From NCBI GenBank assembly GCA_000310025.1, contig FN649740.1:4713103-4777102 (forward strand): a stretch of 64,000 nt of DNA, written 5' to 3'. The DNA is from Ectocarpus siliculosus. Taxonomy: Eukaryota > Sar > Phaeophyceae > Ectocarpales > Ectocarpaceae. The notes under the pieces are model-generated. The model was given only the letters and a program-made list of their open reading frames with translations, was not told the origin of the DNA and made no database searches. Shown in pieces: positions 10,677 to 63,923 of the stretch. Position 1 is the first letter of the stretch; each line of letters opens with the position of its first letter. The translations under genes were made by a program, and so were the position numbers.

Positions 10677-13600
10677 ACAGATATCGACGGTTTCGGATTT
10701 CCGCCGACGAGAAAAACGACAAAAAATGACGTGTTTTCTCCTCTCGTGTCGTTACGCACTTTTCGCGGTGCCTACCTGTTCACACATCAGCAACAACAAC
10801 ACCAGACCCAAAGCCCTGTTCCAAGTCAAGCACACTCAACCACAACCAGCGCGTTGTGGAGCGGTGTGACGTGGACAACAGCGGATTCTCCGTCGTCGCT
10901 TCAGCCTGAACACTGAACGACAGTGGGGGTTGTTGAGCCGAGAGGTACTATCATAGCGCTGTAGGAGAGCAGGCGAAGCAGAGAAGTGACCGGACCAGTA
11001 CAATCTGGCCTCATCGATCGTACTCTGAAGCGCGGTGTAAGGCAGCAGCTGACCAACCACTACTTCTCGTGCAGGACAAGAACTGCGCGTGTCATCCTCG
11101 AGACGGTTCGGCCTCCTATCCTGTCTTTCGCGACGAAGGATACCGTTTACCGTACCGGTCGTGTCAGCACTGACCGGCGTGTGTGCATCAAAACAAATAA
11201 CCAGAGAAACATCAATCAATTGACGACATGACCAACAGCGGACGAAGCAGAGGAGCAAGGGATGCGAGGGTTCATCGACATGGGGTGAGTTTGCGTTGTA
11301 GGGGCTCGCGCGCTTGTCCAGGAAACGCCACCTCTCTCTACCGCGGTGTGCCTTTCGCTTTCGATTCGGGTCGAGGGAGGAATTGGTCTAGAATCCATAG
11401 TAGACGTATATTTGTGTCTCCTGATTACACCCAAAAAAGCTCCAGACCCCGAGGTAGGTTTTAGATTGGCCGAGCGAGCGCGCTTGTCCACCACAGGTAC
11501 TCCGATAACGACCGCTGCCGATCGATGACATGCATCCATATAGACTTGTGATGATATGGTAGACCATATCGCCTTAGAAGGAACCCACCCCTCCACCAAC
11601 CAACACCCCTCCCGCTGAATTAATTCGTCATCCTGTACTTCTGGAAACAAAGAAGAAGAGGACAGGATCCGTATCGTTGGGCCCGGAGCAAACACCGGCG
11701 CGGTCCGCTACGACGCGCCAGCAATCGGCCCCCACCTCCACGGCCACACGCTCGCGGTTCAGTCTCTGGCGCCTCCTGTTTCCGTGCAGCGTCACACGAA
11801 GAGTCCTCGGCGGAAGCACGGCCGGAAGCAGTGAGGCAGACAGCGGGACAGGAACCGTGCGAGGGGCTGGAATTTCCGCGAGGCCAGTCAAGCACGGGAA
11901 TGGAGCCTCGGGCGGCGAGGGACTACCGTCTAGGATCGTTGAGCCAAGTCGGGGCGTCGATGGGATCGGCGGTGGGGGAGGAGGAGGTGGGGGAGGAGGG
12001 AGGTGGGGGAGGAGGAGGTGGGGAAGGCTGGGGAGGTGGGGGGAAAGACCGCGGCACTGGCGGCAGAAGCGGGCATGGGAGCAAAGCATCGCACTCCGGC
12101 AGCGGCGGATTATGGGCTGATCCTCGTTCGGGCTCTGCGAGGCGAGCGTCTCCCTCGATCAGGTGCACCACGAGCTCTCAGCCAACAGTCCGGAGGGGTC
12201 TTGGCATGGAGCAGTACACGGACCCTTGGAACGATTTCCCGTCGAAGGTGGACGCACCGGCAGCCGGAGGTAGCGATGACTTGGAGTTTGGAATGAGCAA
12301 CGAGCCGTGGTCGGCCCACCGTACCTTCTTCGCAGCTGCGGCTAGGGTAAGATCAGCCAGGCGTTCCGCTCTCAAGGCATCTCGCAGAAACGACATGATG
12401 AACGGCATCGGGTGGGATTCGCAGGGTGCAGGACCAAGCCAATCAAGCGCAGCAGGCTTGTCGCTGGCGCCAGTTCTCGGTGTGGGGCGGCGAAACGATG
12501 GACACGAAAGGTGTGGATACTACTGAATCGTGCCGTGTGTCGCCGACGAAAAGGAGGGTCTCTGGTAAATTTGGCAAGCTCACCCCAATATAGTCACCAT
12601 CGTTAGACGTACCGTTCTATAAACAAACACGGCTGGCTGTTGTGCGAAGTACCGAAGAACACGTTTGATTGGTTTGTGTCCCGTCGCACTTTACCGGGAT
12701 CCCCCAAGTAGTTTTCAAGCCTACTGTAGAGGTCAGTGCGTGCGTCCGTCTAGCGCTCACATATGTGCGTAACAACCCAGAGCGACATGCCCTTGACAAC
12801 GCCGAGACACACAAACATACAAACCGGATTTGATCGACGTTTTGTTCCAGGTTGGAGCGGCCCTTGATGGACTCGCCGCCATCGCCGGCCACTTGCGGCA
12901 TCGTCCCCGCCCACGGTAGCGAATACCGGTCTGGGTCGGCCGGCAACGAGGTGAACACTCACCTCGAACAGACCGCGACGTTACCATCTCACTCATGCAG
13001 ACCCCACACGTACCCTACCGCACCTGACATGAGTGATTATTTTTGTAGTTCCGCAAGAAAACGTGCCAAGCAGTTCCCAAACCGTCCATTCTTCAGCCGA
13101 GCCACCTGCAACAAGAGGCGGTAACTCCAGCTTTCCGTGTGCTTGATATACCATGTTGTTCCAAGAACGCCGGAGGGAGCGGGATCTACAAGGGTCATGT
13201 CTCTGATGGTGGCACGGAGGGAACTTTGGAGAAGTCCACAGCTCAGGCGGAAGCGTCCTCGCCGTGGACACCCGCAGCTGTGTCGACCTCATGCCAGAGC
13301 TTCGGTGGAATCCACCACCAATCGAACCACCCACAGAGGACAGCTGAAGACCGGGAGTGTTCCCTAGACGGAGAGTGCCGAAGCTACGGAGGCACCAGCC
13401 TTTCTACCCGTAGCCCGACCATGTTGGGTTCACCTCGCAACACCATTTCAGGTTTGTGCCATTGTTGTTGTGTGTCTTCATATTCACGGGACGTGCGTTG
13501 ACCTCTCTCTTCTTGAGTCAAGTAACTCCACTCCAGTGCCCCTGAAGCAAAAGGAAAGGTTTTCTGTTGTAGAAGGAAGAAATCATTCTATATGAGTCAA

Positions 13601-15863
13601 ACCTCTTACTTTGTCGTCGGTTGGTACGCTTTGCACTAAGCAACGATTGTCGACGCGACCGGAAATCGAGACTAACTCTCGTGGACCCCTTGTTATGTCG
13701 TGATAACGGTGAAAAGACACTGACTGCCCCGTCCAACACCTCTCACTGCATGTATGTATATGCCATCGGACTTGATCTGCTCTACTAGGACACGACATGG
13801 ATACCGCCGACGACAAGGACGACGTGCAACACGGTGTTCAAGATCGCAATGCCGACCTCACGGTAACACCTCCCAGGTCGGCGCGAGGCTTCATGGGATC
13901 ATCAGGCACGAGCAAGACCGAGGTCGCGTACTACCAGCCACCGGTCTCGGAGGGGTACACCGGGGATGGAGATGAGGGGGCCTCGACAGACAGTGGGCTG
14001 AGCTGGCCATCGACACCTGGCATCGAGGTGAGTGCTCACGTCAAACAGACCTCGAGGTATCTGTATGCACGCATCCAACACAAACATATCCGTTTCTAGA
14101 GAACTCTTGCTTCCTGAGAAACGCTCCATCCGATAGTTCCGCAATATAACGCGCACAAAAAGGCAGTACCAACCATTCTACATCCCATGTGCACAAATCA
14201 TACCGTAATTCCAGCTTTCCGCGTGCTTGATTTGATATGCCATGTTGTTCCAAGAACGACGGAGGGAGCGAGTGTTTCAGGGGCAGTGCCTCTGATGGTG
14301 GTAAGGAGGAGGCTTCGAAGGAGTCCACGGCTGGTGTGGAAGCGTCCGCGCCTTCGTCACCAGCATCGTCGATCTCGTACAAGAGCATCGTCGGTGGAAT
14401 CCGCCACCAATCAAACAGGAGAGCGGGAAACGGGAAGCGCCACCTAGACGAAGAAGGTGGAATCTACGGAAGCGGCGGCCTTGCTGCTCGACCCCGCACC
14501 ATGTTCGGTTCCCTGCGCAGCATTATTGCCGGTGAGGTAGTTGATATCGTTGCCGATGTTTTCCAATTGTCCAAACCCGCGTTGGTGGCGGTGAAATGAC
14601 ACTGACTTTCCCGTCAAATTGCTCTCGCCGGACGCCCTCGCACTTGATCTGGCCCACCAGGAAACGGAATGGACATCACCGATGACGAAGAGGGGGAGCA
14701 AGAGGACGACGAACCATCCTACCATGGCGACCTCATCGACCCTGCTCCCACGTTTGAGCGACGCTTCACGGAATCACCAGTTACGAGCAACAACATCCCT
14801 GCCCCCGCTAGGGCATACTCGCCTGGGTCCCCTGGCAACGAGGTGAGGGAGTACTCACGTCAAACGCAACTCTCGGGGTAGCACACATACGACCTGCGCT
14901 CGCCTACCATAGGAAGACATGTTCATGTCTAGCGTAGATTCTCACACCCTCGCGACGTTCGGCCGTGATTGTTTCAATAGTTGAGAGTAGGAATACCACG
15001 CCCAAGCAGTTCCAGCCATGCTACGTGTTCGTCTAAGTCACCTGCACCAACAGGTCATAACCGCAGCTTTCCAATGCTTGCCATGTCATCTTGTTTCAAG
15101 AACGACGGAGGTAGCGGGACTACAAGCGGTGACTTCTACACCTTCGAGCACGCCAGCCGGCCTTCCACGACGTCCGCCCCATCGTACAGCAGGAGCGGCG
15201 ACGGAGGCCAACAAGATTACGACGCGGCCCAGCTTCAGTCCATGCGGCCTTGCGCCAGGCGAGCGCCTCCCGATGCAGTACAGAACGACAGCCCACCGCC
15301 GGGTGCGAAAGAAGGCACAGTGTCGTCGTATGGTCCACCCAAACCCGGCGACGTGACTTCCGGCGGGTCAATTGGAATCGGAGCATGCTGGTGGGGAGAG
15401 AAGGTGCAGCCTACTGCCCGCGCGAATATCAGCCCCGTGGTGGAGGTTCCGAGCACCTCGACCTCACGGAGCAAGCGCTCGTGGGATGACGCGGGTTTGC
15501 GGGGCATTGAGGTATCGGGATCGTCGGCAACATCATGTGGTGGCAGCAGTGCTAATAGCGGAACAGCGCCTGCCGATGGTGCGCCGGACAGCGGTACGGT
15601 TGAACAGTCTCCAAACGATGGGCTTCCACCATCGAAGCGTCTGCGGGTGTACTTGGACGACTACGACCTTGTCCAAAGCGGTGGTGCGCCGGAGGCCTGG
15701 GAGGAGTCGGCAGCTGGCGTGGGAGGGTCCGTGCCGGCTGAAGTGTCGAACAACGCAGGGAGGAGAGCGGGAGATCGGGAGGGTTTCCCAGACGGAGAAG
15801 TTGGCCGCCTCGCTACGCGAATGCCCGCCACCTTCATGTCCCTACGCGACATCATAGCCGGTG
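10677..15863 (+). repeat. Left arm of ~5.2-kb inverted repeat
   Basis: This segment matches the reverse complement of 38290-43468 almost throughout, with scattered substitutions and small indels. It starts at AGATATCGACGGTTTCGGA. It ends inside the donor of exon A3: both arms read GCCGGTGAG and then diverge at once. It contains six of the seven proposed exons of the module gene and a candidate antisense ORF. The spacer between arms is about 22.4 kb and holds the sulfur-activation fusion gene. No terminal repeats or transposase were seen, so a segmental duplication is the simplest reading. Boundaries are judged by eye, within about 10 bases. Confidence 0.9.
12178..12408 (-). CDS. Candidate small protein, antisense side of left arm
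   Basis: A 76-residue ORF starting MPFIMSFLRDALRAERLADL and ending LRTVG. It lies divergent to the module gene, whose proposed start is 460 bases away. The same ORF is intact in the other arm (41746-41976). Of six base differences I could align between the arms, four are silent in this frame and two change residues. In the overlapping plus-strand frame two are silent and four change residues. That mildly favours this strand as coding. No domain recognised. It may be one exon of a longer gene: proline-rich open frames lie downstream to about 11620, but one carries a stop in this arm. Confidence 0.3.
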   Translation of the reverse strand: MPFIMSFLRDALRAERLADLTLAAAAKKVRWADHGSLLIPNSKSSLPPAAGASTFDGKSFQGSVYCSMPRPLRTVG

Positions 15864-16246
15864 AGTTGTGTCATATATATCATTACCGTTTTGACTTCTG
15901 TATATGGTAAATCTTGCCCTGCGCTCTTGAAGGAAAACAATTGATTTTCCGCTCTACGTAGGAGGCACGTGTACCGAGGTCTACGGACCGTACTCGGTTT
16001 CCGAGAGCTAGATGGCTGTGGTTCAGTCACGGTGGGCTGGTTACTGTAGTAACTTGTGTCTCAAAGTTGCCGAAGATCGAGACGCTCTTGGCCGCGTCCT
16101 GTTTGATTTGGTATGATGAATCTGACAACGTTCAACGTCTTCCGCTGGACGTCTCGAACATTCGATCTGCTTCGTCAGGACACTTCACGGAAAAGAAGGA
16201 CATCGACGACGACATCGACGACGACTCCGACGATGACGACCTCTAA
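12867..16246 (+). CDS. Unrecognised gene of alternating A/B exon modules, left copy
   Basis: Proposed exons: 12867-12950 (B1), 13166-13451 (A1), 13789-14027 (B2), 14255-14531 (A2), 14661-14842 (B3), 15101-15860 (A3), 16179-16246 (B-end). The sum is 1,896 bases, 631 residues. Every A exon is preceded by TTCCAAG or TTTCAAG, starts N-(D/A)-G-G-S, ends in a motif like GSLRSIIAG and has phases 0 to 1. Every B exon starts near MDITDDEE and ends (N/I)-E with phases 1 to 0, so A-B units can be added without breaking the frame. The last exon is acidic (DIDDDIDDDSDDDDL). Composition is Ser, Gly, Pro and Asp rich, with PPSKRLRV in A3 as a possible nuclear signal. No family recognised. The start ATG in B1 is the least certain part, because B1 also has a usable acceptor at 12850 and earlier exons are possible. 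Confidence 0.55.
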
Positions 16247-19014: not shown

Positions 19015-36691
<17,677 letters not shown>

Positions 36692-37877: not shown

Positions 37878-40800
37878 TCAAAGGTCGTCGTGGTCTTCTT
37901 CCTCGTCATCACTGCCAGTACAGTTTCCTGGCGGGCCAAATTGAGTGGTGATGGGGGATCGATCGGAGGGCGTGTGACAACAGCGTCAGTACCACCACAC
38001 CATTAAACACACTGAGACCAACAGTGATTATACTCCATGGTAGTCCTTTCGCTCACTTCATCCAAACTACCAACCCGCCAGCAGAGGTTGAATGGTGGCT
38101 TCACGGTGCCCGGAAAACTACGGTTTGTTCGGAGTGCAGTGGGCACCGTGCGGTACATACAATACGTGCCGTCTCCGACGGAGACACATACAGACTACAG
38201 TAGATATCCCCTCAATAACACTGGAGAGGAGGTACCGGATATATGAACGCCCATGTAGGCGTACAGTTACACCACAAACAAAGACCCCTCACCGGCTATG
38301 ATGTCGCGTAGGGACATGAAGGTGGCGGGCATTCGCGTAGCGAGGCGGCCACCTCCTCCGTCTGGGAAACCCTCCCCATCTCCCGCTCTCCTCCCTGCGT
38401 GGTTCGACACTTCAGCCGGCGCGGCTCCTCCCACGCCAGCCGCCGACTCCTCCCAGGCCTCCGGCGCACCACCGCTTTGGACAAGGTCGTAGTCGTCCAA
38501 GTACACCCGCGGACGCTTCGATGGTGGAAGTCCATCGTTCGGAGACTGTTCAACCGTACCGCTGTCCGGCGCACCATCGGCAGGCGCTGTTCCGCCATTA
38601 GCACTGCTGCCACCACATGATGTTGCCGACGATCCCGATAGGTCAATGACCCGCAAACCCGCGTCATCCCACGAGCGCTTGCTCCGTGAGGTCGAGGTGC
38701 TCGGAACCTCCACCACGGGGCTGATATTCGCGCGGGCGGTAGGCTGCGCCTTCTCTCCCCACCAGCATGCTCCGATTCCAATTGACCCGCCGGAAGTCAC
38801 GTCGCCGGGTTTGGGTGGACCATACGACGACACTGTGCCTTCTTTCGCACCCGGCGGTGGGCTGTCGTTCTGTACTGCATCGGGAGGTGCTCGCCTGGCG
38901 CAAGGCCGCACGGACTGAAGCTGGGCCGCGTCGTAATCTTGTTGGCCTCCGTCGCCCCTCCGGCTGTACGAAGAGGCGGACGTCGTAGAAGGCCGGCTGG
39001 CGTGCTCGAAGGTGTAGAAGTCACCGCTTGTAGTCCCGCTCCCTCCATCGTTCTTGAAACAAGATGACGTGGCAAGCATTGGAAAGCTGCGGTTATGGCC
39101 TGTTGGTGCAGGTGACTTAGACGAACACATGGAATGGCTGGAACTGCTTGGGCGTGGTTTTCCTACTCTCAACTGTTGAAACAATCACGGCCGAACGTCG
39201 CGAGGGTGTGAGAATCTACGCTAGACATGAACATGTCTTCCTATGGTAGGCGAGCGCAGGTCGTATGTGTGCTACCCCGAGAGTTGCGTTTGACGTGAGC
39301 ACTCACTCACCTCGTTGCCAGGGGACCCAGGCGAGTATGCCCTAGCGGGGGCAGGGATGTTGTTGCTCGTAACTGGTGATTCCGTGAAGCGTCGCTCAAA
39401 CGTGGGAGCAGGGTCGATGAGGTCGCCATGGTAGGATGGTTCGTCGTCCTCTTGCTCCCCCTCTTCGTCATCGGTGATGTCCATTCCGTTTCCTGGTGGG
39501 CCGGATCAAGTGCGAGGGCGTCCGGCGAGAGCAATTTGACGGGAAAGTCAGTGTCATTTCACCGCCACCAACGCGGGTTTGGACAGTTGGAAAACATCGG
39601 CAACGATATCAACTACCTCACCGGCAATAATGCTGCGCAGGGAACCGAACATGGTGCGGGGTCGAGCAGCAAGGCCGCCGCTTCCGTAGATTCCACCTTC
39701 TTCGTCTAGGTGGCGCTTCCCGTTTCCCGCTCTCCTGTTTGATTGGTGGCGGATTCCACCGACGATGCTCTTGTACGAGATCGACGATGCTGGTGACGAA
39801 GGCGCGGACGCTTCCACACCAGCTGTGGACTCCTTCGAAGCCTCCTCCTTACCACCATCAGAGGCACTGCCCCTGAAACACTCGCTCCCTCCGTCGTTCT
39901 TGGAACAACATGGCATATCAAATCAAGCATGCGGAAAGCTGGAATTACGGTATGATTTGTGCACATGGGATGTAGAATGGTTGGTACTGCCTTTTTGTGC
40001 GCGTTATATTGCGGAACTATCGGATGGAGCGTTTCTCGGGAAGCAAGAGTTCTCTAGAAACGGATATGTTTGTGTTGGATGCGTGCATACAGATACCTCG
40101 AGGTCTGTTTGACGTGAGCACTCACCTCGATGCCAGGTGTCGATGGCCAGCTCAGCCCACTGTCTGTCGAGGCCCCCTCATCTCCATCCCCGGTGTACCC
40201 CTCCGAGACCGGTGGCTGGTAGTACGCGACCTCGGTCTTGCTCGTGCCTGATGATCCCATGAAGCCTCGCGTCGACCTGGGAGGTGTTACCGTGAGGTCG
40301 GCATTGCGATCTTGAACACCGTGTTGCACGTCGTCCTTGTCGTCGGCGGTATCCATGTCGTGTCCTGGTAGAGCAGATCAAGTCCGAGGGCATATATATA
40401 CATGCAGTGAGAGGTGTTGGACGGGGCAGTCAGTGTCTTTTCACCGTTATCACGACATAACAAGGGGTCCACGAGAGTTAGTCTCGATTTCCGGTCGCGT
40501 TGACAATCGTTGCTTAGTGCAAAGCGTACCAACCGACGACAAAGTAAGAGGTTTGACTCATATAGAATGATTTCTTCCTTCTACAACAGAAAACCTTTCC
40601 TTTTGCTTCGGGGGCACTGGAGTGGAGTTACTTGACTCAAGAAGAGAGAGGTCAACGCACGTCCCGTGAATATGAAGACACACAACAACAATGGCACAAA
40701 CCTGAAATGGTGTTGCGAGGTGAACCCAACATGGTCGGGCTACGGGTAGAAAGGCTGGTGCCTCCGTAGCTTCGGCACTCTCCGTCTAGGGAACACTCCC

Positions 40801-41287
40801 GGTCTTCAGCTGTCCTCTGTGGGTGGTTCGATTGGTGGTGGATTCCACCGAAGCTCTTGCATGAGGTCGACACAGCTGCGGGTGTCCACGGCGAGGACGC
40901 TTCCGCCTGAGCTGTGGACTTCTCCAAAGTTCCCTCCGTGCCACCATCAGAGACATGACCCTTGTAGATCCCGCTCCCTCCGGCGTTCTTGGAACAACAT
41001 GGTATATCAAGCACACGGAAAGCTGGAGTTACCGCCTCTTGTTGCAGGTGGCTCGGCTGAAGAATGAACGGTTTGGGAACTGCTTGGTACGTTCTCTTGC
41101 GGAACTACAAAAATAATCACTCATGTCAGGTGCGGTAGGGTGCGTGTGGGGTCTGCATGAGTGAGAAGGCAACCTCGGGGTCTGTTTCGACGTGAGTGCT
41201 CACCTCGTTATCGGCGGACCCAGACCGGTATTCGCTACCGTGGGCGGGGACGATGCCGCAAGTGGCCGGCGATGGCGGCGAGTCCAT
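37878..41287 (-). CDS. Unrecognised gene of alternating A/B exon modules, right copy
   Basis: Exons 41204-41287 (B1), 40702-40987 (A1), 40126-40364 (B2), 39622-39898 (A2), 39311-39492 (B3), 38293-39052 (A3) and 37878-37927 (B-end); 1,878 bases, 625 residues. The first six have the same lengths, base for base (84, 286, 239, 277, 182, 760), as in the left copy, although both contain substitutions. So both copies look to be under constraint or recently homogenised. A2 is identical in protein, A1 has one change and A3 about fifteen. The last exon differs from the left one (NCTGSDDEEEDHDDL) but keeps the acidic DDL end. It lies outside the repeat arm, past an intron that has no similarity to its left counterpart. 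Function unknown. Confidence 0.55.
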
Positions 41288-43468
41288 CACGGGCCGCTCC
41301 AACCTGGGACAAAACGTCGATCAAATCCGGTTTGTATGTTTGTGTGTCTCGGCGTTGTCAAGGGCATGTCGCTCTGGGTTGTTACGCACATATGTGAGCG
41401 CTAGACGGACGCACGCACTGACCTCTACAGTAGGCTTGAAAACTACTAGGGGGATCCCGGTAAAGTGCGACGGGACACAAACCAATCAAACGTGTTCTTC
41501 GGTACTTCGCACAACAGCCAGCCGTGTTTGTTTATAGAACGGTACGTCTAACGATGGTGACTATATTGGGGTGAGCTTGCCAAATTTACCAGAGACCCTC
41601 CTTTTCGTCGGCGACACACGGCACGATTCAGTAGTATCCACACCTTTCGTGTCCATCGTTTCGCCGCCCCACACCGAGAACTGGCGCCAGCGACAAGCCT
41701 GCTGCGCTGGATTGGCTTGGTCCTGCACCCTGCGAATCACACCCGATGCCGTTCATCATGTCGTTTCTGAGAGACGCCTTGAGAGCGGAACGCCTGGCTG
41801 ATCTTACCCTAGCCGCAGCTGCGAAGAAGGTACGGTGGGCCGACCACGGCTCGTTGCTAATTCCAAATTCCAAGTCATCGCTACCTCCGGCTGCCGGTGC
41901 GTCCACCTTCGGCGGGAAATCGTTCCAAGGGTCCGTGTACTGCTCCATGCTAAGACCCCTCCGGACTGTTGGCTGAGAGCTCGTGGTGTACCTGATCGAG
42001 GGAGACGCTCGCCTCGCAGAGCCCGAACGAGGATCAGCCCATAATCCGCCGCTGCCGGAGTGCGATGCTTTGCTCCCATGCCCGCGTCTGCCGCCAGTGC
42101 CGCGGTCTTTCCCCCCACCTCCCCAGCCTTCCCCACCTCCTCCTCCCCCACCTCCTCCTTCCCCACCGCCGATCCCATCGATGCCCCGACTTGGCTCAAC
42201 GATCCTAGACGGTTGTCCCTCGCCGCCCGAGGCTCCATTCCCGTGCTTGACTGGCCTCGCGGAAATTCCAGCCCCTCGCACGGTTCCTGTCTCGCTGTCT
42301 GCCTCACTGCTTCCGGCCGTGCTTCCGCCGAAGACTCTTCGTGTGACGCTGCACGGAAACAGGAGGCGCCAGAGACTGAACCGCGAGCGTGCGGCCGTGG
42401 AGGCAGGGGCCGATTGCTGGCGCGTCGTAGCGGACCCCGCCGGTGTTTGGTCCGGGCCCAACGATACGGATCCTGTCCTCTTCTTCGTTACCTGAGTACA
42501 GGATGACGAATTAATTCAGCGGGAGGGGTGTTGGTTGGTGGAGGGGTGGGTTCCTTGTAAGGCGATATGGTATACTGCTGTATCATCACAAGTCTATATG
42601 GATGCATGTCATCGATCGGCAGCGGTCGTTATCGGAGTACCTGTGGAGCACAAGCGCGCTCGCTCGGCCAATCTAAAACCTACCCTCGGGGTCTGGAGCT
42701 TTTTTGGGTGTCATCAGGAGATGCAATAACAACCTATCGATTCCAGACCAATATTCCTCCCTCGACGTATCCGAAAGAGCAGGGCACACCACGGCAGAGA
42801 GAGGTGGCGTTTCCTGGACAAGCGCGCGAGCCCCTATAACTCAAACTCACCCCATATCGATGAACTCTCGCATCCCTTGCTCCTCTGCTTCGTCCGCTGT
42901 TGGTCATGTCGTCAGTTGACTTGATGCTTCTCTGGTTATTTGTTTTGATGCACACACGCCGGCCGGTGCTGGCACGACCGGTATACGGTAAACGGTATCC
43001 TTCGTCGCGAAAGACAGGGTAGGAGGCCGAACCGTCTCGAGGATGACACGCGCAGATCTTGTGCTGCACGAGAAGTAGTGGTTGGTCAGCGGCTGCCTTA
43101 CACCGCGCTTCAGAGTACGATCGATGAGGCCAGATTGTACTGGTCAGGCAACTTCTCGCCTTCGCCTCTCTCCAGTAGCAGCAGTGTTGTAGTATTAATA
43201 ATACCTCTCGGCTCAACAACCCCCACGGTCGTTCAGTGTTCAGGCTGAGGCGACAACGGAGAATCCGCTGTTGTCTACGTCGCGCTGCCCCACAACCTGC
43301 CGATTGTGGTTGAACTTCCTTGACTTGGGAACAGGGACTTGGGTCTTGTGTTGGTGCTGATGTGTGACCAGGCAGGCACCGCGAAAAGTGCGTAACGAAA
43401 CGAGGAGACACATGTCATTTTTTTGGTCGCTCCCTTCGTCGGCGGAAATCCGAAACCGTCGATATCTG
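38290..43468 (-). repeat. Right arm of ~5.2-kb inverted repeat
   Basis: Reverse-complement partner of 10677-15863. The inner end falls in the donor of exon A3 (low side) and the outer end at CCGTCGATATCTGTTTTGG. Differences are mostly substitutions plus length changes in the G/C-rich tract around 42120-42180. Confidence 0.9.
41746..41976 (+). CDS. Candidate small protein, right-arm copy
   Basis: 76-residue ORF matching the one at 12178-12408 with two replacements (Asp to Gly and Pro to Leu). Open from MPFIMSFLRDAL to LRTVG. In this arm a downstream proline-rich frame runs on to 42506 without the stop seen in the left arm, but a length change in the C-rich tract shifts it relative to the preceding part. 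No domain recognised. Confidence 0.3.
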   Translation: MPFIMSFLRDALRAERLADLTLAAAAKKVRWADHGSLLIPNSKSSLPPAAGASTFGGKSFQGSVYCSMLRPLRTVG

Positions 43469-45541
43469 TTTTGGTTGACTGCAATGGTTGACACAGGATC
43501 TCACATCCTCGCACGATCCCATCCATCCCCGTCAAGTTTGTCTTTCTCCGTCCTCAACATACTGGGAAGCATAGGCTCCACTCATCCGCAAACACGTGGC
43601 ATATAGGCGCTGTGGATAGCACATAAACTTGACCTGCACGACGACCACCGGTATACATCGATCGGAGGCATACAGTGTCTACATAGATGATCTGTGACCC
43701 GGAGAAGGCAGCATCTCATCCCCGGGTGTTCCATACATACAAGCCTGAGCAGCAGTCACACTTGTTGTTTGTGTGCTTAATCCGGTGCTTTGGCCGCCTT
43801 GAGCAGCACGAAGAACTCGTCCGTGATGCTCACCCAACTGCTTCAACAAGGAAGTGTTGACTCGTGGCGCGATCAGATAGATGCTTTCGAGACAACATGC
43901 GCTGCTGTACTACTACTGTTGTCCGCCATCCATTCATTGCTTCTGAGAAACATTGTACCGTGGTCTCAGACGAATTCTGTCGAGAGGGGTCGCGACCTTC
44001 GGATAGACCTTTGGTAGGCCATTATTAACGAAAGCGCTTTCCCCGCGAAACACGCAACAGTCTAATGTGCTGCTGTAGATCTATCGGTGTTGTTGTGTTG
44101 TTCCTTACTCTCTTCTTTGGCGAGCAGGTCGTCGTTGTTCACCAAGAGAAGAACATATATGTCTCGCATCGCATTTCTCTTGTGGTTTATTCGGGAACGA
44201 ACGCGCGTTCAACCACAGGCACCCATTCCAACCAGGAAGAGTATCTGGGACTTGGTGCGAAGCTGTAGCCCCTTCGTTTGATAGGCGCCATGTTGTTGGT
44301 CAGCCGCGATGTTAGAAGTCGTGGCGACGGCAACAATTATTGTCGAATGACTGGATGGACACCGACACAATCCACAGAGTCAGTCTTGAGAGTCGCAGGA
44401 GGCCGCAAATACAGTAAACTTGTGCATCTTCTGTATCAGTGACCCTGGCTGGTTTTTGCGTTAGATGAGAGAGACCATGCCCCTTCGCCACTTAGACTAG
44501 TGCTGCTGCCGGCATGTACCGGGCCGGTTCTAACCCCAAGCGGGTACCGGCCAAAATGCTTTCAAAGCGCATGTTAACAAGAAACAAATGTCCCAACAGC
44601 TGTGGCATGGATGCATCGTCACCGACCGGCTGGCTCTACCGGGAGTATGCATAGCACCATCAACCGAGAGAGGCATTCATTGCCGTTGAGCGTTACCCAA
44701 GCTGGTGTGATTGCACCGCACCACCGCAAGCTTCAACTCGCATCCACATGCTTATCGAAGACGGCAGCAGTGAGTGGTGGATAACTGAGGCACACCAACC
44801 AAAGCGAAGATATGCAAGATGAAAAGCACAAACAAGTAAGTAAGTCTGGTCGAGAAACCGATGCGTTTGGTTTTTATTGAGGCCGTTCCTTGGCTTTGCT
44901 TTCTATTGGTTGGCTGCCGAGCTTCGCATGTTCAGCAGCCAATTAACGCGCGACTCATCAAGGCACGCTCCCGGGGGAAAATAAAAATACCAAGCACGCA
45001 AACACCCTCGTTGCCCAGGAGCTAGCCCATCTAAATACCACACGAGGGTACCCCACCCTTCTCCCACCCGTTTCCCTCTGCCTGCAAGGGTCACAGGCAG
45101 CCATGCCATTAAGGTCCGCTCAAAAGTTCCGCGAACAGGCTAAAGGGTATTCAAGGGAAAATATTCACCCTGGCTTAATAATGTTGGCGGTGGGTTGCTG
45201 CATGCCAAAAGCCGCCAGGGGCGGGGCGGGTGGGGGGAGGGGGGGGTAAAACAAACCCAGAGTAACGCCTATTCAGAGGCCATCTGTCGGGGCCCCCGAA
45301 GAGGCTCTACAACACTACCCCGAAAAACCGTTACAACGCTCGTGGGTGCATCGTCCACATGTGCGTGTGGTACGGTATCTCATCTAAAAATGTACGAACC
45401 CCTTCCTTCGGCACTACATAACGCACAAACTTCTGTGATCGATCAACCACGAACTACTCTACTACGTCTTTGGAAGAGAGCCAGCACAGCAGCGAAACGC
45501 AGCAGCTGCAGCAATGTCGGTTAACTAAACGGTTTGCAGCA
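41977..45541. other. Distal right arm and intergenic region
   Basis: To 43468 this is repeat arm with G/C-rich low-complexity frames open on both strands. Beyond it, to the light-harvesting gene, I find no gene, RNA or mobile element. Confidence 0.45.
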
Positions 45542-55205: not shown

Positions 55206-58039
55206 TTACTTACAGTCGAAGCTCGTGAGCGTGATGGCTAACGCCTGTCATGCCGTGCAAGAACCAGGACAAGGGTCAGGGGGGCAGGGGGAGGTTAAGA
55301 AAAGAAAAAGGGAAGGAGCGGGGTAGAAGAGGATAACTACACTATTGATGGGGCGGCTAGCCGCGTAATGGTACCTCAGTAATGCCTGATGTGTACCGTA
55401 CTGAGCAGACAGACACCGGCTTTCTAGCGTTAAGATGGCCACAACAACAACAACAACAACAACAACAATAACGCAGATATTAGATACTTGCAGCGGAGAC
55501 AAGGGGTGGCAGAAGTCCATGGTGAACTAATTCGTGCAACGACAGGGACAACGACAACAAGCACAACGAACAACAACGTAGATAGCGGCAACATACCTGC
55601 AGCGGAGACAAGGGGTGGCAGAAGTCCATGGTGAATTCATTCGTGTGAGTCCTCCCGAACTGCAAGGTGATCTGCTCCGTCACATCTCCCTGAACGACCA
55701 GCTGGAAGTTCTTCACGGACGCTTGAGTCACCCTCCCGTGGAAGTTCAGCACGAACGCCTGTACCTGTTGTTCGTAATAACACGGGGGGGAAGCCGGAGC
55801 ATTGGTCGGGTGCGTACATGGGGAGGGGCTGGGGTTGAGGGAAGCGGGAGGCGAGACCATTCCGCGAATAACTGTTCACTATTCACGGAAGCAACAACGT
55901 GTGCATTGTACGTGTGTTCATGTGAACTGAAAAAAAAGAAATGAATGGTGTTGGGGAAGGTGTGTTCGTGCGTGAACAGAAAAAGTAACCAAGCCAAGCC
56001 ACACATATGTATAGCAACACAACCACACCAAACCTAGGGGGGCATGGAATTGCGTTTCTTCAAGAGAAAAGAACCCGGGCTGCCCCACAGCATGCCACGC
56101 GGCCAAACGGTGTCATCATGGACACGGCAACGACGGCGACAACGAAAACCAAACGACAACAACTACTTCAACAATGACAACCATAGGACAACAACAACAA
56201 CAACAACAGCGACGGCGACAACAACAAAGTACCATGACACCAAACACACCTTGGCGTTCCATCGCGGATTTCTGTTGATGAGGCAGGGCTCCTCTAGAGA
56301 GTCCAGGCTTCCCCTCAGCATGCGGTGAAGCAGGGACGATTCTGCCTCCACGTCCGCATTGTTGCCGTGCATGTTGCCCAGTACCACCCTCATCTTGCGG
56401 GGCCCCTCGTACCTAATATACCAGACAAGAAGCAGAACAAAGGAAAACATCAAGGAGGGGGGGGAGGCATGAAAGAGAGAAAGCAAGGATAAGTCCAAGG
56501 ATAAGGGATTACAGTGGCGGCTACGGTTCAAGAGAGGGTCGTGACAAACCACTATTTCTCTATTAAATCCGGTTTTCTCTTAAACCGTACTGTGACATGT
56601 ATGTATTTCTCATGGTCGTGACAAGGCAGTTTGACTCTTAAATCGGTAATTTCTCTTAAATAGTCTCTCTTAAACCGTAGCCGGCACTGCGTGTACAACT
56701 ATCAATAGGGAGAGGGAGCTTGAGAGAGGATAAGTGGTAGAGGTGCGAGGCCGAAACAGGGGTTCCGCGGCATCACTGAGGCTGCCGGATGAGTACCCCA
56801 TCTACTTTAATTGCCATGGCTTTCACGATGGAAGGAACCAGCACCGTATGACGTCATTAACATGATCGCCGTGGGTAGCCTCGTCCCGTCAGGAATACAG
56901 CAGCACGCACGTGGAAACGGCTGCGTACTCCCAAGCACAAAACGGGCGTGGACGGGGCGACAACTTCAGTACCACCGCCGAAACCCTTCATTGCCAGCAG
57001 CTACATCAAAACCCACAACCCACAACAAAAACAAAAACAACGAGAACACCATCAGCAGCAACAACAAAAACAACAGCAGCAGCATCAGCAGCACCAGCAG
57101 CACCAGCAGGAGCAACAACAATCTCACCGTCCATGCGGATCCATCTTGTCAGCCGAGTAGTGCACCGCAGCGACCTCCTTCTCCTTCCCGTTGCCCCTGT
57201 CGTCTGGACCGGTGAACCTCGGGCTAAACACCTGCAAGTACACACATACACAGGCCGGAGCTGAGCGTGCGTACCGTCTGATTCCTTCGTTGATGTCGAA
57301 CTTTTTCGTATCTGCCATCTCACAAATCATCGTCGGCACGAAATGTAGACTACGCCTGTTGCGTCCCGCAGATGACAGAAAACATACATACCGCTCGAAT
57401 GACCTTGCCCACACATAGGAACAATAGCGTTTTGCGAGGGAAGTCGAGTGCTCTCAAAGGTCTCCGGCCGATCCCGTGACTCCACCAGTGACGAGGGTTG
57501 CAAGAAGAGAGAGCGAGAAAAAACGAACACCCAAGAACAGTAATGTTATGTGGTATATGTGGTATGTGGTACCTGAAACTCCTCCGACGTCCTGGTGGTG
57601 GCCTTGAGTCGTCCCACGATGTTGCTGCTGTTGCCGTTGTCGTCACCGTCCTCCCCGTCCTCCATGCTCATCACGAACTGAGACGCCGAAGCTCCGCCTT
57701 TCTTACGAGCCGTCATCAGATAACGGTCCGGGAAATCTCCTGCCGCACGCGTGTGCCGTCATTTAGAGCGTACGGTACGGGAAGATGAAGAAATTGCGGC
57801 GGGATACATGACGTTTCGGTGAATAGGATGGCGTATCAACGACCTGAGACGCCGAAGCCCCTTCTTTCTTTCACCGCCAGCGACAAAGGCTGCTATCCTC
57901 CGGCCCCCCGCAAAAAACGGCACTTTTTCAAGCAGACCCAAACATGTTGATACTCTCTCTCTATCTCTATCTCACCCTTTCCCTCCATGTAGAGCTTGTA
58001 CACCTCGTTGCCGCGGATGAGCTTGCTGAAACCTCGAAC
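55206..58039 (-). other. Tubby-domain exons
   Basis: Exons 57976-58039, 57573-57739, 57128-57231, 56250-56412, 55597-55764 and 55206-55244. Landmarks in order: EVYKLYMEGKG, DRYLMTARKKGGASASQFVM (basic residues where animal Tubby binds PtdIns(4,5)P2), IVGRLKATTRTSEEFQVFSP, MRVVLGN, INRNPRWNAKVQAFVLNF, HGRVTQASVKNFQLV, FGRTHTNEFTMDFCHPLSPL and the terminal SFDCK. All closing strands and the buried C-terminal helix motif (QALAITLTSFD) are present, so the fold is complete. The tiny last exon (13 codons including stop) was found by frame and family ending. Confidence 0.94.
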
Positions 58040-61000
58040 CTGTCGATATCAAATAAAGTCAAGAGCGACGGACGTTCAAACGACGACAGGGAGGAAAAAC
58101 ATTGTCTTCAAATGTGCAGCCTTCTTGCGGAGATTCCCCCCCCCCTNNNNNNNNNNNNNNNNNNNNNNNNNNNNNNNNNNNNNNNNNNNNNNNNNNNNNN
58201 NNNNNNNNNNNNNNNNNNNNNNNNNNNNNNNNNNNNNNNNNNNNNNNNNNNNNNNNNNNNNNNNNNNNNNNNNNNNNNNNNNNNNNNNNNNNNNNNNNNN
58301 NNNNNNNNNNNNNNNNNNNNNNNNNNNNNNNNNNNNNNNNNNNNNNNNNNNNNNNNNNNNNNNNNNNNNNNNNNNNNNNNNNNNNNNNNNNNNNNNNNNN
58401 NNNNNNNNNNNNNNNNNNNNNNNNNNNNNNNNNNNNNNNNNNNNNNNNNNNNNNTTTTGTAGGGAAGCCACCGGGAGACACGAGGGCATCCCACAAAGGA
58501 AAAAAAAAAACGCTGGTTGGTTGATTCATGGAGGGTGCTCCTCTCGTCTTCTTTCGTTGGGAATGGATTCTTTTGACGCACCTCCTTTTCTTCCTCCTTG
58601 CGTTACGCGCATGCCGAAGTTTTTCTCCCCCTTTTCGCCCCCCTTTTGTTGAACATACACAACAAACCCCCCCAACACAATCCAGCAGTCGGCAGCTTCA
58701 GCTTCAGCTTCAGGGGGGGTGGGGGCGACAGCAACCCCCAAGAAGCGAAGGGTGGGAGGGGCTTCAACGGGGCAGGGAGGATTTAGGATGAGGTTTTATC
58801 ACAAAAATTGAAAAATTGCTCTGTATACCTAGCTATATGACCGGTAGCAGCACAAGCACAGAGGGAGAGACTCACGAAACATTTCGTAAATAAAAGGGAA
58901 GGGGGGGGGGGGTGCTGCAGTTGAACACGAAAAGACGGGGTGTGAACCCCCTTAGGTCGGGAGTCAAAGACGCTCGAAAAAAAACAAAAAACAATCGAGC
59001 CCTGATTGGTCGAGAACAAAAAAACAGCTAGTCTGGGTTGTTGTTACAGAGCTCAATTTTGACTTTTCGATAAAAAAAAAAACTGACAAGGCTTTTATTG
59101 TTCAAGTCAAGCAATCCAAGACCCCATTTTTTGTAGCCGGGAGCCGATTACTTTTTCCGGCCAAGGGAGCCAACCGATTTTGATTTTGTTCGAGCCTCGT
59201 TAATTTACTACGGGAGCAACCTGACCCCTTACCGCGTTGTGGAAAAGTGGGTTGTAGCGGCCGACCGACATTCCCCCCTCGTCGTCCCCCTCCCCCGCAC
59301 CCGCACCCGCGGCGCCCCCATGGCCGCTGTAGAAGCGGGAGAAGGTGCCGCCGGAAGACGAGCCTGACTTGAACTTGTCTTGCATGTCCATAGGCATGTC
59401 GGTGTCGGAGTCGTAGTCGGGCATGATGCCCAAAATCTGAGGGATTAAAGTCGGGGGGTTGGTGGTGCGGTTTGGATGCCGGGGAAGGCAACTAACTGAG
59501 AATTGCCATACAACACTGCGCTCGTAGTAGTTGGTACGGGGGAGCGGGCACAGCAGTAGTGCCGGCATGCTCCGCTCAAATCCACAGAATCCTCAGCAGC
59601 CCAAACCACTTGTGAAACACACAAAAAAATGAAATAAAAATTTACAGCAAGAAAAAGAACTACGAGGACGACAGAGCGATATATACATAGCGGGGTGGCT
59701 CTCTCACTCTGTCCCGTCTCTCTTCTCTCTTCTCTCACCGAATTGCCGTTATCGACAGGGCTATCCTGTGCGAACTCCCCCCCCGCCCCTCCCCCTCCCC
59801 CGCTGCTCCTGTCCTTCTTGCCGCCGCCACTGCCCCCTCCGATCAGCTTCCCCATCAAGCTACCCCCGCCAGAGGCAGCCTTCTCCGCCTTCTTCGCAGC
59901 CTGTGTTTTACGTATTGGAATATACCATGTATTTATTAACAGGCGACCGTTATTGTACGGAATTTATTTTGTTGCGACACGTTTCTCTTTTCGAAACGCG
60001 ACAGTACGAAACGCGTGATCACAGTAAAATCATGTACATTACAAGCTTCAGATTCTGCGTGTATCTTTATTTTTTCGCACGTGGGGGATACTACAACGGT
60101 GTCGTAGCTCCGAACTAAATAACGCGGACCCCCACGTAGATACCGTGCGTACAATACGTTCATAGACAACCCTGCTTGCAGTCTGGAAGACCAAATAAGC
60201 ACAAGACAAGGAAGGCACATGGAAGACGACGGATGAAAAATACACCTTCGACGTACATAGAATATGTACAATATGACAAGAGAGTCCTACACAGATACAA
60301 ATGTAAAATACACCTTCGGCGTACATAGAATATGTACAATATGACAAGAGAGTCCTACACAGATACAAGTGTAAAATACACCTTCGACGTACATAGAATA
60401 TGTACAATATGACAGGAGAGTACAGCAGTACACACAACGGCGATGTATGTAGATTTGTTGTTGTGTTCGTCGAGAAAAAATGGTCCAACTGACTCGGGCG
60501 CCTTCCGTGGTCTACGGCCAACCATTTACATACCACTTTCGAACCCAAAACGCACATCCCCAGTGCAAAACCGCGCGCCATTAACATACTTCGAAGTATA
60601 AAAAATCGACGAACCTTCTTCCGCTCTTCCTCCTCCTTCTTAATCCGCTCGTCCTCTGCCTTCTTGGCAGCGGCCAACCTTCTCTCCTCCTCCTCCCTCC
60701 TCCTCCGTTCCTCTTCCTCCCTCGCCCGTCGTTCCCGCTCCTCCTTTTCGACCTTCAATCGCTTCGCCGTCTGTCGATCGACGTGTCCCCTATTGACAGG
60801 TAGGTTCGTTTTTTAAACGAAAGGCGGTGAGGAAAACAGCAGTAACAACAACAACAACAGCGACTGCGACGACGATAACGGCACCGCAGAAGACAACGAA
60901 AACTACGACAGCAGCAACAGTAGCAGCAACGGCAGCAATATTGAAAGACACCAGCAGCTAAATCGCAGCAACAGCAGCAGTATCGACAACGACAGCAACA

Positions 61001-63684
61001 ATGCCGACAGAGAGAACAGCAACCACAGCAACAACAATTGCAGCAGCAGCCGCAGCAATAGCACAACAGCAGCAATGTCATCAAAGACACCAACGACGAC
61101 AGCAACAACCACATCGCAGCCGCAGCAGCCGCAGCCGTAGCCGCAGCAGCGTCAGCAATGTCGTCACAGACAGCGACAACGACAGCAACCACCAAACCGC
61201 AGGAGCAGCAGCAACGGCAGCAGCAGCAGCTGCAGCAATGGCGACAACGACTCCGATAGAAACAGAAAAAAAAATCTCACCTCCACAACTTCTGCGCCAC
61301 TATCGCGGAGGTCCGAAGCCTGAGGTAGGGCCTGCGCTTGGCGTTCCCCATGAGCGCCCGCTGCACCGTGACTACTTTCACTCTAACGAACTTCCCGCGC
61401 TCCTCCTCCATCTGCTCGAGCACCCCAGCTCGGAAATACACCTGTGTCCGCGACGTTTCAGTTTCAGCACCTGTCAGCTTTTCTACGGTTGAAATTTTCC
61501 AAGGGATAAAACCAAAATAAGGGCGGGCTCGACAACCCGTAATAGTGCCGAGGAAACTTTGACGTTAACAGATTCACGACAAGTATCGCCAGGATCAAAT
61601 TCGTCTCCACGTCAAACGCGGTTATTTCCAGTTCCATCACGGGTTGGAGTAAACGGCACAAAGGATGTGAGCGCTGATTTTTGGAGTCAATACTACAAAA
61701 AAAAAAAAAAGACCCACTAGGGTTGTCGTTCTTGAATCTATACTGCCTTGTCGCCCTGCATCAATCAATGCACAATGCACGGCGACAAAACCAGCAACCC
61801 CAACGGAACACATCTGACTCAAACAACCGCGCACGACGCCGCCAACAGCAATAACGGCAACAACAGCAACACCGCTCTCTCTCTCTCCCCACCTTGGTAT
61901 TACCAAGACAGCACTTGCTGTCCTTTTCGCGTCCCAGAAGCTTCTCCAGAATGAACTTGCACTGCGACGACTCCGACCGTCTTCAAGAAAAAAGGAACAG
62001 AAAAAGAAGGAAAAAAAAACATTTGTGAGTGCCATGCCAAGGGTTTCCAGCAACCCCGGAACAGGCGTGGATGCCGGAAAACCATGCACGTACGGAAAAG
62101 CGTGGGATGGGATGGGACGGGATGCGAGAATGCGAAACGAAAGTAAAAACAGCTTCAACTGTGCGTACGAATGTACATACAAGGCTCCCCTTCCGGGATA
62201 GGTACACTTGCCTCCCGGGGGCGACGCAAGAGGACATGGCCACTGCTATAATGGTTGCATCGTTGTATATCTCAACCCACCTCCGGTAGTGCCACGGTTC
62301 GTTTCGGAAACTAACTCGCATCAATTTGCATCAATTTGCATCAATTTGCGGTGGAAACGTTTTTTCGCCGTTACTCTTCGTGAGTGCTCTCGCGGTGTCG
62401 TTGCCGTAGATCCTACTACTGCTGAAACACAGACTGCCGCTGCTGTGTTCTTCAACTAGATGCTTTTCGGCGGGTATTTGTGCGGTCATCGCTCGGAAGT
62501 TTCTGCGCAGAATCTCTGTGGTCATTCGGCGGGAAATAAGTATCGTTTCTTTTTGCGATATACCCCGGCGGTAAACGGGAATAAATTGGAGCCGGTATCG
62601 TTCCGTATTTGTCCGTGATGCTTGTTATGCAGCAGTTGGCCTGGTGAGTCCCAAGCACACATACGATAGGGAAGCGGCGTCCTTGCCGCAGGTCGTACTG
62701 CTATAACCCGCTGCTCTTGCTCTCTCTCTCCCTCCCTGTTGTGTTTTGTACGGCGTTGCTCATGATGTGTGGAACGTGTGTGCAGTTTGAGCACGCGACA
62801 AAAAAATCAGAACAATGGTTCCCTCTTGTACGGATGACAAAAAACGTATTGTAAATCCTGCAAAGACCTTTGTGGTTCGGATTCGCGACCCCTGGAATAG
62901 AGCCAGTGCCAGCGACTTCTGAGCGGCCATCACGTGCATCACCGAGGTCCCGCGAGCCCGACGCGCAACGGGCAATGTGCCGACGGGTCCTCTGAGTGCC
63001 ATGCAGACAAACGTGTGAGAAAGAACGCTGTCCCCGGAAGAGGAATAGACCAAAACCAAGCAAACAAGTGGACTTGGTACATCATGCAGACAAACGTGTG
63101 AGAAAGAACGCTGTCCCCGGCAGAGGAAGAGACCAAAAAACCAAGCAAAAGAGTGGACTTGGTACATCAAATGCATATACCTGGCGAATGCCGCCGCCTC
63201 CTTCTCCCTCGTGGCCTTGCTAGCGCCGCCACCCCCCTTCGTAACCTTGTTCGCCATCACCTCGAAACGTCGAGAAAACTCGCGGAAAATCATGCGGTTG
63301 GGGTACGCCGCTCGCGAGATTCGAATCGCCTGTTTTCACGATTTTCACGAGCGAGGTGCACATGTGATTTTTGTTCAACATGACAACGGGAGAGGAACAA
63401 AAAATAGGGGGCGGAGGGATGAGGGGAGGGAGGCGAGAAGCAAGAAGGGATCGCTAGGAAAGAGCGGGCGAACGGGTACGACGCTCGTGGCCCCAGGAAC
63501 ACATAACACACAACTTGCAATGGACTGCTGTTGCTGCGGAACTCCAACAGAGCACAATGTACGACAGCCAGCGACACGCGATGGGATGCAGACACAAAGA
63601 GGACCAAACAAGACAAGACAGCAGCAGCAAACAACAACAACAACAACAGTCACAGCACCAATAACGGCAGAAGCAGTCAAAACA

Positions 63685-63717
<33 letters not shown>

Positions 63718-63923
63718 AACCACAAACCAAATTTAAACGAGACCATGCTTCTCACCTCCACAACCCCTGCACATCTCAGCTGCTCCACCACCATGAGGCA
63801 GTTCAGCTCGTCCTTCGACTTGTTCGCGTTCGGCTTGATGCACCGGACGTACTGCACCTCAGTCCTCTGGATGGCCGCCATCAGGGCGTGCAGCTGACGC
63901 TTGAACTTGGATCCGAGGGACTC
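55206..63923 (-). CDS. Myosin with C-terminal Tubby domain (partial, 5' end outside window)
   Basis: Thirteen exons placed, 1,812 bases, 604 codons including the TAA stop (55208-55206). The phases agree across all of them, including across the N-gap. Order: end of the myosin motor, converter, IQ-like neck, charged helix, Gly-rich linker, complete Tubby domain. The motor would move on actin with ATP. The Tubby fold in animals binds PtdIns(4,5)P2, so the tail may tether the motor to membrane (inference). The first visible exon starts in phase 0 with ESLGSKFKRQLHALM, so most of the motor (P-loop, switches) lies beyond 64000. An extra exon inside the gap at 58147-58454 is possible but not needed for frame. 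Stramenopiles are known for unusual myosin tails; I do not recall with certainty whether this pairing has been described. Confidence 0.93.
55484..55536 (-). pseudogene. Partial duplicate of a Tubby exon with in-frame stop
   Basis: This stretch repeats the last ~49 bases of the exon at 55597-55764 together with its donor, 109 bases downstream in the gene. In frame it reads TN, stop (TAG at 55529-55527), FTMDFCHPLSPLQ. It has no acceptor equivalent and would end translation early if retained. Confidence 0.8.
58147..58454. other. Assembly gap of 308 N after a C homopolymer
   Basis: Gap in the intron before the first Tubby exon. Flanking exons are both phase 0. A missing exon in the gap cannot be excluded. 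Confidence 0.95.
59233..60789 (-). other. Myosin tail: charged helix and linker exons
   Basis: Exons 60615-60789, 59739-59900 and 59233-59436. The first encodes a Glu/Arg/Lys helix (KVEKEERERRAREEEERRRR and onward) with spacing more like a single charged alpha-helix than a heptad coiled coil. The second and third are Gly/Ser-rich with acidic stretches (DYDSDTDMPMDMQDKF, GEGDDEGG), a flexible linker toward the Tubby domain. Nothing here suggests another folded domain. Confidence 0.85.
60237..60420 (+). repeat. 68-bp tandem repeat, ~2.7 copies
   Basis: The unit starting TACACCTTCGACGTACATAG occurs at 60241, 60309 and 60377 with only a few differences. Each unit contains the near-palindrome GTACATAGAATATGTAC. 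It lies in a myosin-gene intron. Confidence 0.9.
61281..63923 (-). other. Myosin part: motor C-terminus, converter and neck exons
   Basis: Exons 63756-63923, 63181-63329, 61893-61980 and 61281-61441. VQYVRCIKPN is the highly conserved strand before the SH helices. EQLRCAGVVEAIRISR is the SH2/SH1 region (canonical EQLRC.GVLE.IRI.R). YPNRMIFREFSRRF enters the converter. GNTKVYFRAGVLEQMEEER is the end of the converter and start of the lever arm. A following stretch with VVTVQRALMGNAKRRPYLR, and then LWRGHVDR across the next junction, looks like one or two weak IQ light-chain sites. A Gly-rich insert with Lys (NKVTKGGGGASKATREKE) sits inside the converter. Confidence 0.92.
63001..63168 (+). repeat. 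83-bp tandem duplication in myosin-gene intron
   Basis: ATGCAGACAAACGTGTGAGA starts units at 63001 and 63084; both run through CGCTGTCCCCGG and end GGACTTGGTACATC. They differ at a few positions. The second unit ends about a dozen bases before the donor of the exon at 63181-63329. Confidence 0.9.

Follow-up and report, generated by a model that had tools for sequence, protein, structure and literature searches.

A probable myosin with a C-terminal Tub domain in the brown alga Ectocarpus siliculosus

Introduction

At the right edge of a 64,000-nucleotide stretch of the Ectocarpus siliculosus genome (C15:4713103-4777102, the window hereafter), exons for the end of a myosin motor are followed on the same strand, from 63923 to 55206 of the minus strand, by exons for a Tubby-like (Tub) domain. 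Do these exons belong to one gene, and what could a myosin do with such a tail? The original prediction had answered that motor and Tubby domain lie in one chain of exons with matching phases, that a TARKK patch in the tail corresponds to the lipid-binding site of animal Tubby, and that the motor would be recruited to PtdIns(4,5)P2 membrane and perhaps released by lipid hydrolysis. The pairing of a myosin with a Tub domain has been in print since 2014, and the gene described here is a solid new example of it.

Methods

Exons were chained from hand-picked peptide cores together with donor and acceptor signal scores, in the window and the adjoining contig stretch. At the first intron, between exons 4 and 5 and between exons 10 and 11 the junction used was not the one with the top splice score, since a lower-scoring junction was favoured by homology to other myosins. 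The genome assembly examined comprised 189 Mb in 492 contigs. In the genome myosin search, 65 of 144 candidates were scored and gave 96 matches, which were grouped into about 24 motor loci. Residue numbers in the Tub domain are those of tubby, obtained as the position in the 1c8z chain plus 240 and counted back from the C-terminus, which we take to be residue 505. The literature was searched mostly outside subscription papers.

Results

The exon model

The spliced C15 model has 24 exons and 1231 residues and lacks the extreme N-terminus; presumably it begins within the N-terminal SH3-like part, short of the true start. Exons 12-24 lie in the window (Table 1) and the 11 upstream exons beyond its edge, at C15:4777653-4785258; placed at the right edge on the minus strand, the gene has the first half of its motor beyond the window. 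All 13 exons between 55206 and 63923 are present with GT-AG junctions and compatible phases, and the model ends with the stop codon TAA at 55208-55206. The G+C content was 0.52-0.67 in the 12 window exons measured, versus 0.42-0.53 in the neighbouring introns.

Table 1. Window part of the C15 gene model, listed in the direction of transcription
Feature	Position in window	Strand	Basis
Exon 12: motor, C-terminal part (SLGSKFKRQL...CIKPN...LRCAGVVE)	63756..63923	-	Myosin_head profile 557-644; junctions
Exon 13: motor, AIRISRAAYPNRMIF..., and Gly/Ala/Lys-rich insert	63181..63329	-	Pfam, splice model
Exon 14: start of converter (CKFILEKLLG...LGNTK)	61893..61980	-	Junctions; alignment to myosin Va
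Exon 15: end of converter (VYFRAGVLEQMEEER) and neck	61281..61441	-	Junctions; alignment to myosin Va
Exon 16: remainder of the IQ motif (AQKLWRGHVDR, split between exons 15 and 16) and the bulk of the charged helix, rich in E/R/K	60615..60789	-	Charge-pair count
Exon 17: end of helix, then Gly/Ser-rich linker	59739..59900	-	Splice signals and open frame only
Exon 18: linker rich in Gly and acidic residues, its end reading ...YNPLFHNA; donor GCG|GTAAGG	59233..59436	-	Splice signals and open frame only
Intron 18: 1,193 bases with an assembly gap of ~300 N	58040..59232	-	
Exon 19: first part of the Tub domain (VRGFSKLIRGNEVYKLYMEGK)	57976..58039	-	Pfam Tub match begins here
Exon 20: Tub; TARKK and GRLK	57573..57739	-	Alignment to tubby, Pfam
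Exon 21: Tub	57128..57231	-	Pfam, splice model
Exon 22: Tub	56250..56412	-	Pfam, splice model
Exon 23: Tub (AFVLNFHGRVTQASVKNFQL...FTMDFCHPLSPLQ)	55597..55764	-	6.0e-23, top score among the 12 genome Tub matches listed
Exon 24: C-terminal end of Tub, ALAITLTSFDCK, with stop codon TAA	55206..55244	-	Pfam, splice model

The domain search with the joined model, which had been proposed as a check, placed both domains in one protein: Pfam Myosin_head matched at 9.1e-218 over its full length (profile 2-679 of 679), and Pfam Tub (PF01167) matched at 6.9e-48 as a complete, C-terminal domain (profile 23-255 of 256). The claim of motor motifs and a complete Tubby domain in one exon chain was thus upheld for the joined model, the nucleotide motifs being outside the window. 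The phases do match throughout, as had been stated, yet this is weak evidence of a single gene because 17 of the 23 introns are of phase 0, and phase matching as a proof of one gene was rejected on this ground.

Repeats were seen at several places in the gene. In a partial duplication of the exon, the 3' end of exon 23 and its donor recur 109 bases away in intron 23 (window 55484-55536 and 55593-55645; 53 bases at 94% identity, while blastn gives 84% over a match of 98 bases). Two introns carry minisatellites, one at window 60233-60421 (68-base unit, 2.8 copies, 95% matches) and one at 63000-63169 (83-base unit, 2 copies, 93% matches).

Elsewhere in the window there is an inverted repeat pair of 5.2 kb, 95.8% identical and about 22 kb apart (10669-15865 and 38288-43478), which is possibly a mobile element; in its first copy, neither of two long open frames matched a Pfam family at 0.01. 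On the minus strand we also found frames with a CCT motif (1979-3454, 5.8e-13), an inorganic pyrophosphatase (21324-22187, 6.3e-06) and an APS kinase (29477-30364, 1.1e-14). With gathering cut-offs applied, Rfam gave no match in the window.

One gene or two

The critical point of the model is intron 18, which separates the linker of the myosin from the Tub domain. Its splice signals are good (acceptor GACAG|GTT; the donor is given in Table 1). If the donor of exon 18 is skipped, the frame closes at VRGQVAPVVN followed by a stop, which would allow a myosin with that end. Upstream of exon 19 there is a close in-frame stop with no in-frame ATG between it and the exon, and a separate Tub gene would therefore need an exon in the gap; because intron 18 holds about 300 N, such a hidden 5' exon is possible at the C15 locus. 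We accordingly considered two adjacent genes, a myosin ending in the exon 18 linker (at NPLFHNAVRGQVAPVVN and a stop) and a Tubby-like gene with its first exon in the N-gap, and judged this arrangement improbable. The stop codon that closes the exon 18 read-through and a gap that could conceal a start both speak for it, but exon 19 offers no in-frame ATG ahead of the Tub core, and Tub-tailed myosins have been reported from heterokonts and haptophytes in the portion of PMC3942036 available to us.

Further evidence came from the other Tub loci of the genome. The 12 Tub exon matches listed in the genome search were grouped into seven loci, and at three of these (C15, C14 and C62) the same strand carries motor exons upstream, the nearest matches being 6.6-11.8 kb away. 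A tblastn search with the C15 protein as query, which may miss divergent motor exons, detected no motor within 9.2-11.7 kb upstream of the first listed Tub match at C8, at two loci on C33 and at C21. Stand-alone Tub loci thus seem to exist, in four of the seven cases, which would suit two genes, as would a Met in the first Tub exon of C14 (TMRAFL) that could act as a start. Against this, the order of motor and Tub is the same at three loci, and in C14 the two are separated by just 150 bases with good splice sites: a single exon there carries the end of the converter, an IQ motif, a charged helix and an acidic linker, and is followed by the 150-base intron and the first Tub exon. The C14 tail model (479 residues) matched Tub at 1.3e-34 and Myosin_head at 1.4e-07 (30.6 bits, below the cut-off of 33.3, as it holds the motor end only).

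The three loci are not independent evidence, because they are paralogs, and a duplicated pair of adjacent genes would give a like pattern in all three. For the same reason no weight was given to the chance of finding three of seven Tub loci beside a motor, about 1.5e-8 if placements were independent (24 motor loci, 12 kb reach). Taken as a whole, these gene models are best explained by a single gene encoding a Tub-tailed myosin, which we regard as probable.

Motor, neck and linker

Within the window the motor is represented by its C-terminal part only (profile 557-644, converter and neck); it does not reach the P-loop, switch I or switch II. These nucleotide motifs are intact (GESGAGKT, NDNSSRFGK and DIFGFE, respectively), and from its sequence the C15 motor looks able to work. 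The top-scoring solved relative was myosin Va (PDB 8of8, 1.3e-159). In the alignment with it C15 has Lys where myosin Va has Glu at the TEDS position.

The neck contains, after the converter (VYFRAGVLEQMEEER), one good IQ-like pattern match, AQKLWRGHVDR. It is followed by a charged helix of 64 residues, of which 46 carry a charge. Its net count of attractive i,i+3/4 pairs is 33; the mean of shuffled sequences was 0.2, and none of 2000 shuffles scored as high. An excess of this kind marks a charged stretch as a likely single alpha helix. Between the helix and the Tub domain lies a low-complexity, flexible linker of about 110 residues.

The charged region might instead form a coiled coil and give a two-headed, processive motor rather than a single-headed tether. 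The E/R/K-rich helix of 64 residues could be weakly coiled-coil, and the top-scoring solved motor is that of myosin Va, which is processive. Nevertheless the strong excess of attractive i,i+3/4 pairs is typical of single helices, and no coiled-coil family was among the Pfam matches of the joined C15 model, so that we hold a two-headed form to be unlikely and prefer a single-headed one.

The Tub domain and its lipid site

The top-scoring solved relative of the tail was tubby (2.5e-28). With the numbering used here, YIGKLRSN contains K330 and R332 and FTVYDNG contains Y343, in agreement with the mutants in the available part of PMC10445746. The TARKK patch, named as the lipid site by the original prediction, aligns to tubby 299-303 and does overlap the second PI(4,5)P2 site (301-305 according to the same partial text), where the C15 residues are R, K, K, G and G, basic in three of five. 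It is not the canonical pocket, however, as K330 and R332 align to the R and K of NIVGRLKATT (GRLKA). Since these two residues are basic, the conclusion about the lipid site survives, and only the site had been misnamed.

Both canonical positions are basic in all six Tub loci read of the seven found, C21 being left out and three of the rows having been joined across junctions without a check. At other positions C15 departs from tubby: N310 is replaced by Gln, Y343 by Phe, and the residue aligned to R363 is not clearly basic; N310 and R363 are presumably part of the PI(4,5)P2 pocket. Judged from the aligned residues, the lipid-site charges of the C15 tail appear largely kept.

A real fusion whose Tub domain lacks PI(4,5)P2 binding, and serves as a protein-protein module or binds another lipid, would be in keeping with Gly at 304 and 305, Gln for N310 and the doubtful R363, and the animal tubby domain is described in the part of PMC10445746 seen as binding a protein too, E-Syt3. 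We think this has a low probability, given that the two canonical positions are basic in C15 and in five other Tub loci read, and that Y343F is reported, in the same portion of that paper, to be without substantial effect on affinity.

Paralogs and their relationships

The C15, C14, C62 and C27 motors formed one clade (SH-aLRT 95, UFBoot 98) in a tree of short exon fragments around the P-loop, switch I and switch II (168 columns, or 169 with a corrected C62 fragment) from 21 of the roughly 24 algal motor loci and human myosin Va. Its support was 96.5/99 once the C62 fragment was corrected and 95.6/99 when C62 was omitted, and C14 and C62 were sisters (93/98 and 90.2/98). Five of the 21 rows have no switch II block, the first fragment of m191 has no P-loop and seems to be misread, and C62 sits on a long branch; C7:1844281, C8:3834496 and C70:88191 were left out, as their listed matches miss the P-loop/switch I block. 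The simplest reading of the tree would be one gain of the Tub domain followed by duplication. The Tub domain nearest to the C15 tail is that of C8 (64.7% in the best exon), a locus without a motor detected in the 11.7 kb upstream, and this closeness could reflect an independent gain or simply slow change of the two domains.

At the C62 locus (C62:121800-140500) the last exon matched Tub at 3.6e-19, the P-loop exon matched Myosin_head at 6.8e-13 and a late motor exon did so at 0.05. C62 is a fast-changing paralog and putative Tub-tailed myosin, with P-loop GESGSGKS and an unusual switch I, NESSSRFMA; the P-loop of C14 is GVSGAGKT. A dead motor in C62, suggested by HMFRLE at switch II, was rejected because those letters are intron: an upstream frame that ends in ...SSIGLLDMFG before a GT donor continues, with matching phase, into ...LENLDPSGFEQ and gives a recognisable switch II, DMFGLE. 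The near-related C27 myosin (C27:2474200-2486700) has no listed Tub match, its tail region holds 7,851 N, and it may be a fourth Tub-tailed myosin. A scan of IMG/VR for relatives of the tail gave three pattern matches, none of which was confirmed.

Discussion

The most likely job of the C15 protein, as read from its domains, would be that of a single-headed motor or tether linking actin to PI(4,5)P2-rich membrane. The charged helix would lengthen the lever arm, a calmodulin-like light chain would bind the IQ motif, and the Tub domain would anchor the tail to PI(4,5)P2-rich plasma membrane, which the motor could then pull on, or tether, along cortical actin. Release of the tail on loss of the lipid is possible. 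In the portion of PMC10445746 at hand, induced phosphatase depletion does release the animal tubby domain, but the domain is also noted to stay on the membrane during PLC activity, which weakens release by hydrolysis and makes it the weakest step of the proposed mechanism.

Of the five second-site positions, C15 has basic residues at three, C14 at two and C62 at one, and the lengths of the linkers differ as well, so individual members may be suited to particular lipid levels or to a particular reach. We put forward tentatively, as a possibility rather than an expectation, that three, perhaps four, single-headed Tub-tailed myosins form a small expanded family of links, gated by PI(4,5)P2, that join cortical actin to the plasma membrane, perhaps tuned in this way. 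To our knowledge a Tub fold does not serve as a lipid link in any animal or fungal myosin. If the tail binds PI(4,5)P2, actin force would be coupled directly to a signalling lipid, and the named lipid-site residues make this coupling directly testable.

Among the papers listed by the literature searches, which gave part of the hits, there was no functional study of a Tub-tailed myosin; in the text of PMC5583752 both matches to "tub" were tubulin, and PMC2375034 had none. The closest known system is class XXI, for which the section of Sebe-Pedros et al. 2014 (PMC3942036) available to us gives IQ, WW, PX and Tub (PF01167) tails in heterokonts and haptophytes. Its sampling includes Ectocarpus siliculosus, so the C15 gene may already be within that survey. 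The passage does not name the Tub-carrying species, and C15 is likened to class XXI by described domains, each joining a Tub tail to a myosin head, and by the same broad lineage. Class XXI and class XXX myosins are expanded in oomycetes and hyphochytrids, according to an excerpt of PMC5795050. To the class XXI description are added here the lipid-site residues, the paralog set and the charged helix; new are the full motor, the set of three loci with its tight C14 junction, and the corrected mapping of the lipid site.

With myosin Va the C15 motor shares the nucleotide motifs. It differs in the charged helix, the Tub tail, Lys in place of Glu at the TEDS position, and a single good IQ motif, whereas the myosin Va neck has six. 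With the C-terminal domain of Tubby and TULP proteins (PDB 1s31, 1c8z and 1i7e) the tail has in common the domain family, the basic residues at 330 and 332 and the C-terminal place. In C15, K330/R332 are swapped to R/K, the second site is basic at three of five positions, N310 is Gln, the chain ends in SFDCK, four residues before the end of tubby, and the domain is joined to a motor, unlike tubby. TULP3-type ciliary adaptors have an N-terminal IFT-A-binding helix; upstream of Tub the C15 protein has a motor and linker. Alike in the way they work are class XXX myosins, with a PX or PH tail (PMC3942036, in part), and myosin I. In both, the motor is held to membrane lipid by its own tail, which in myosin I is the lipid-binding TH1, and their lipid-binding domains are unrelated to the Tub domain of C15.
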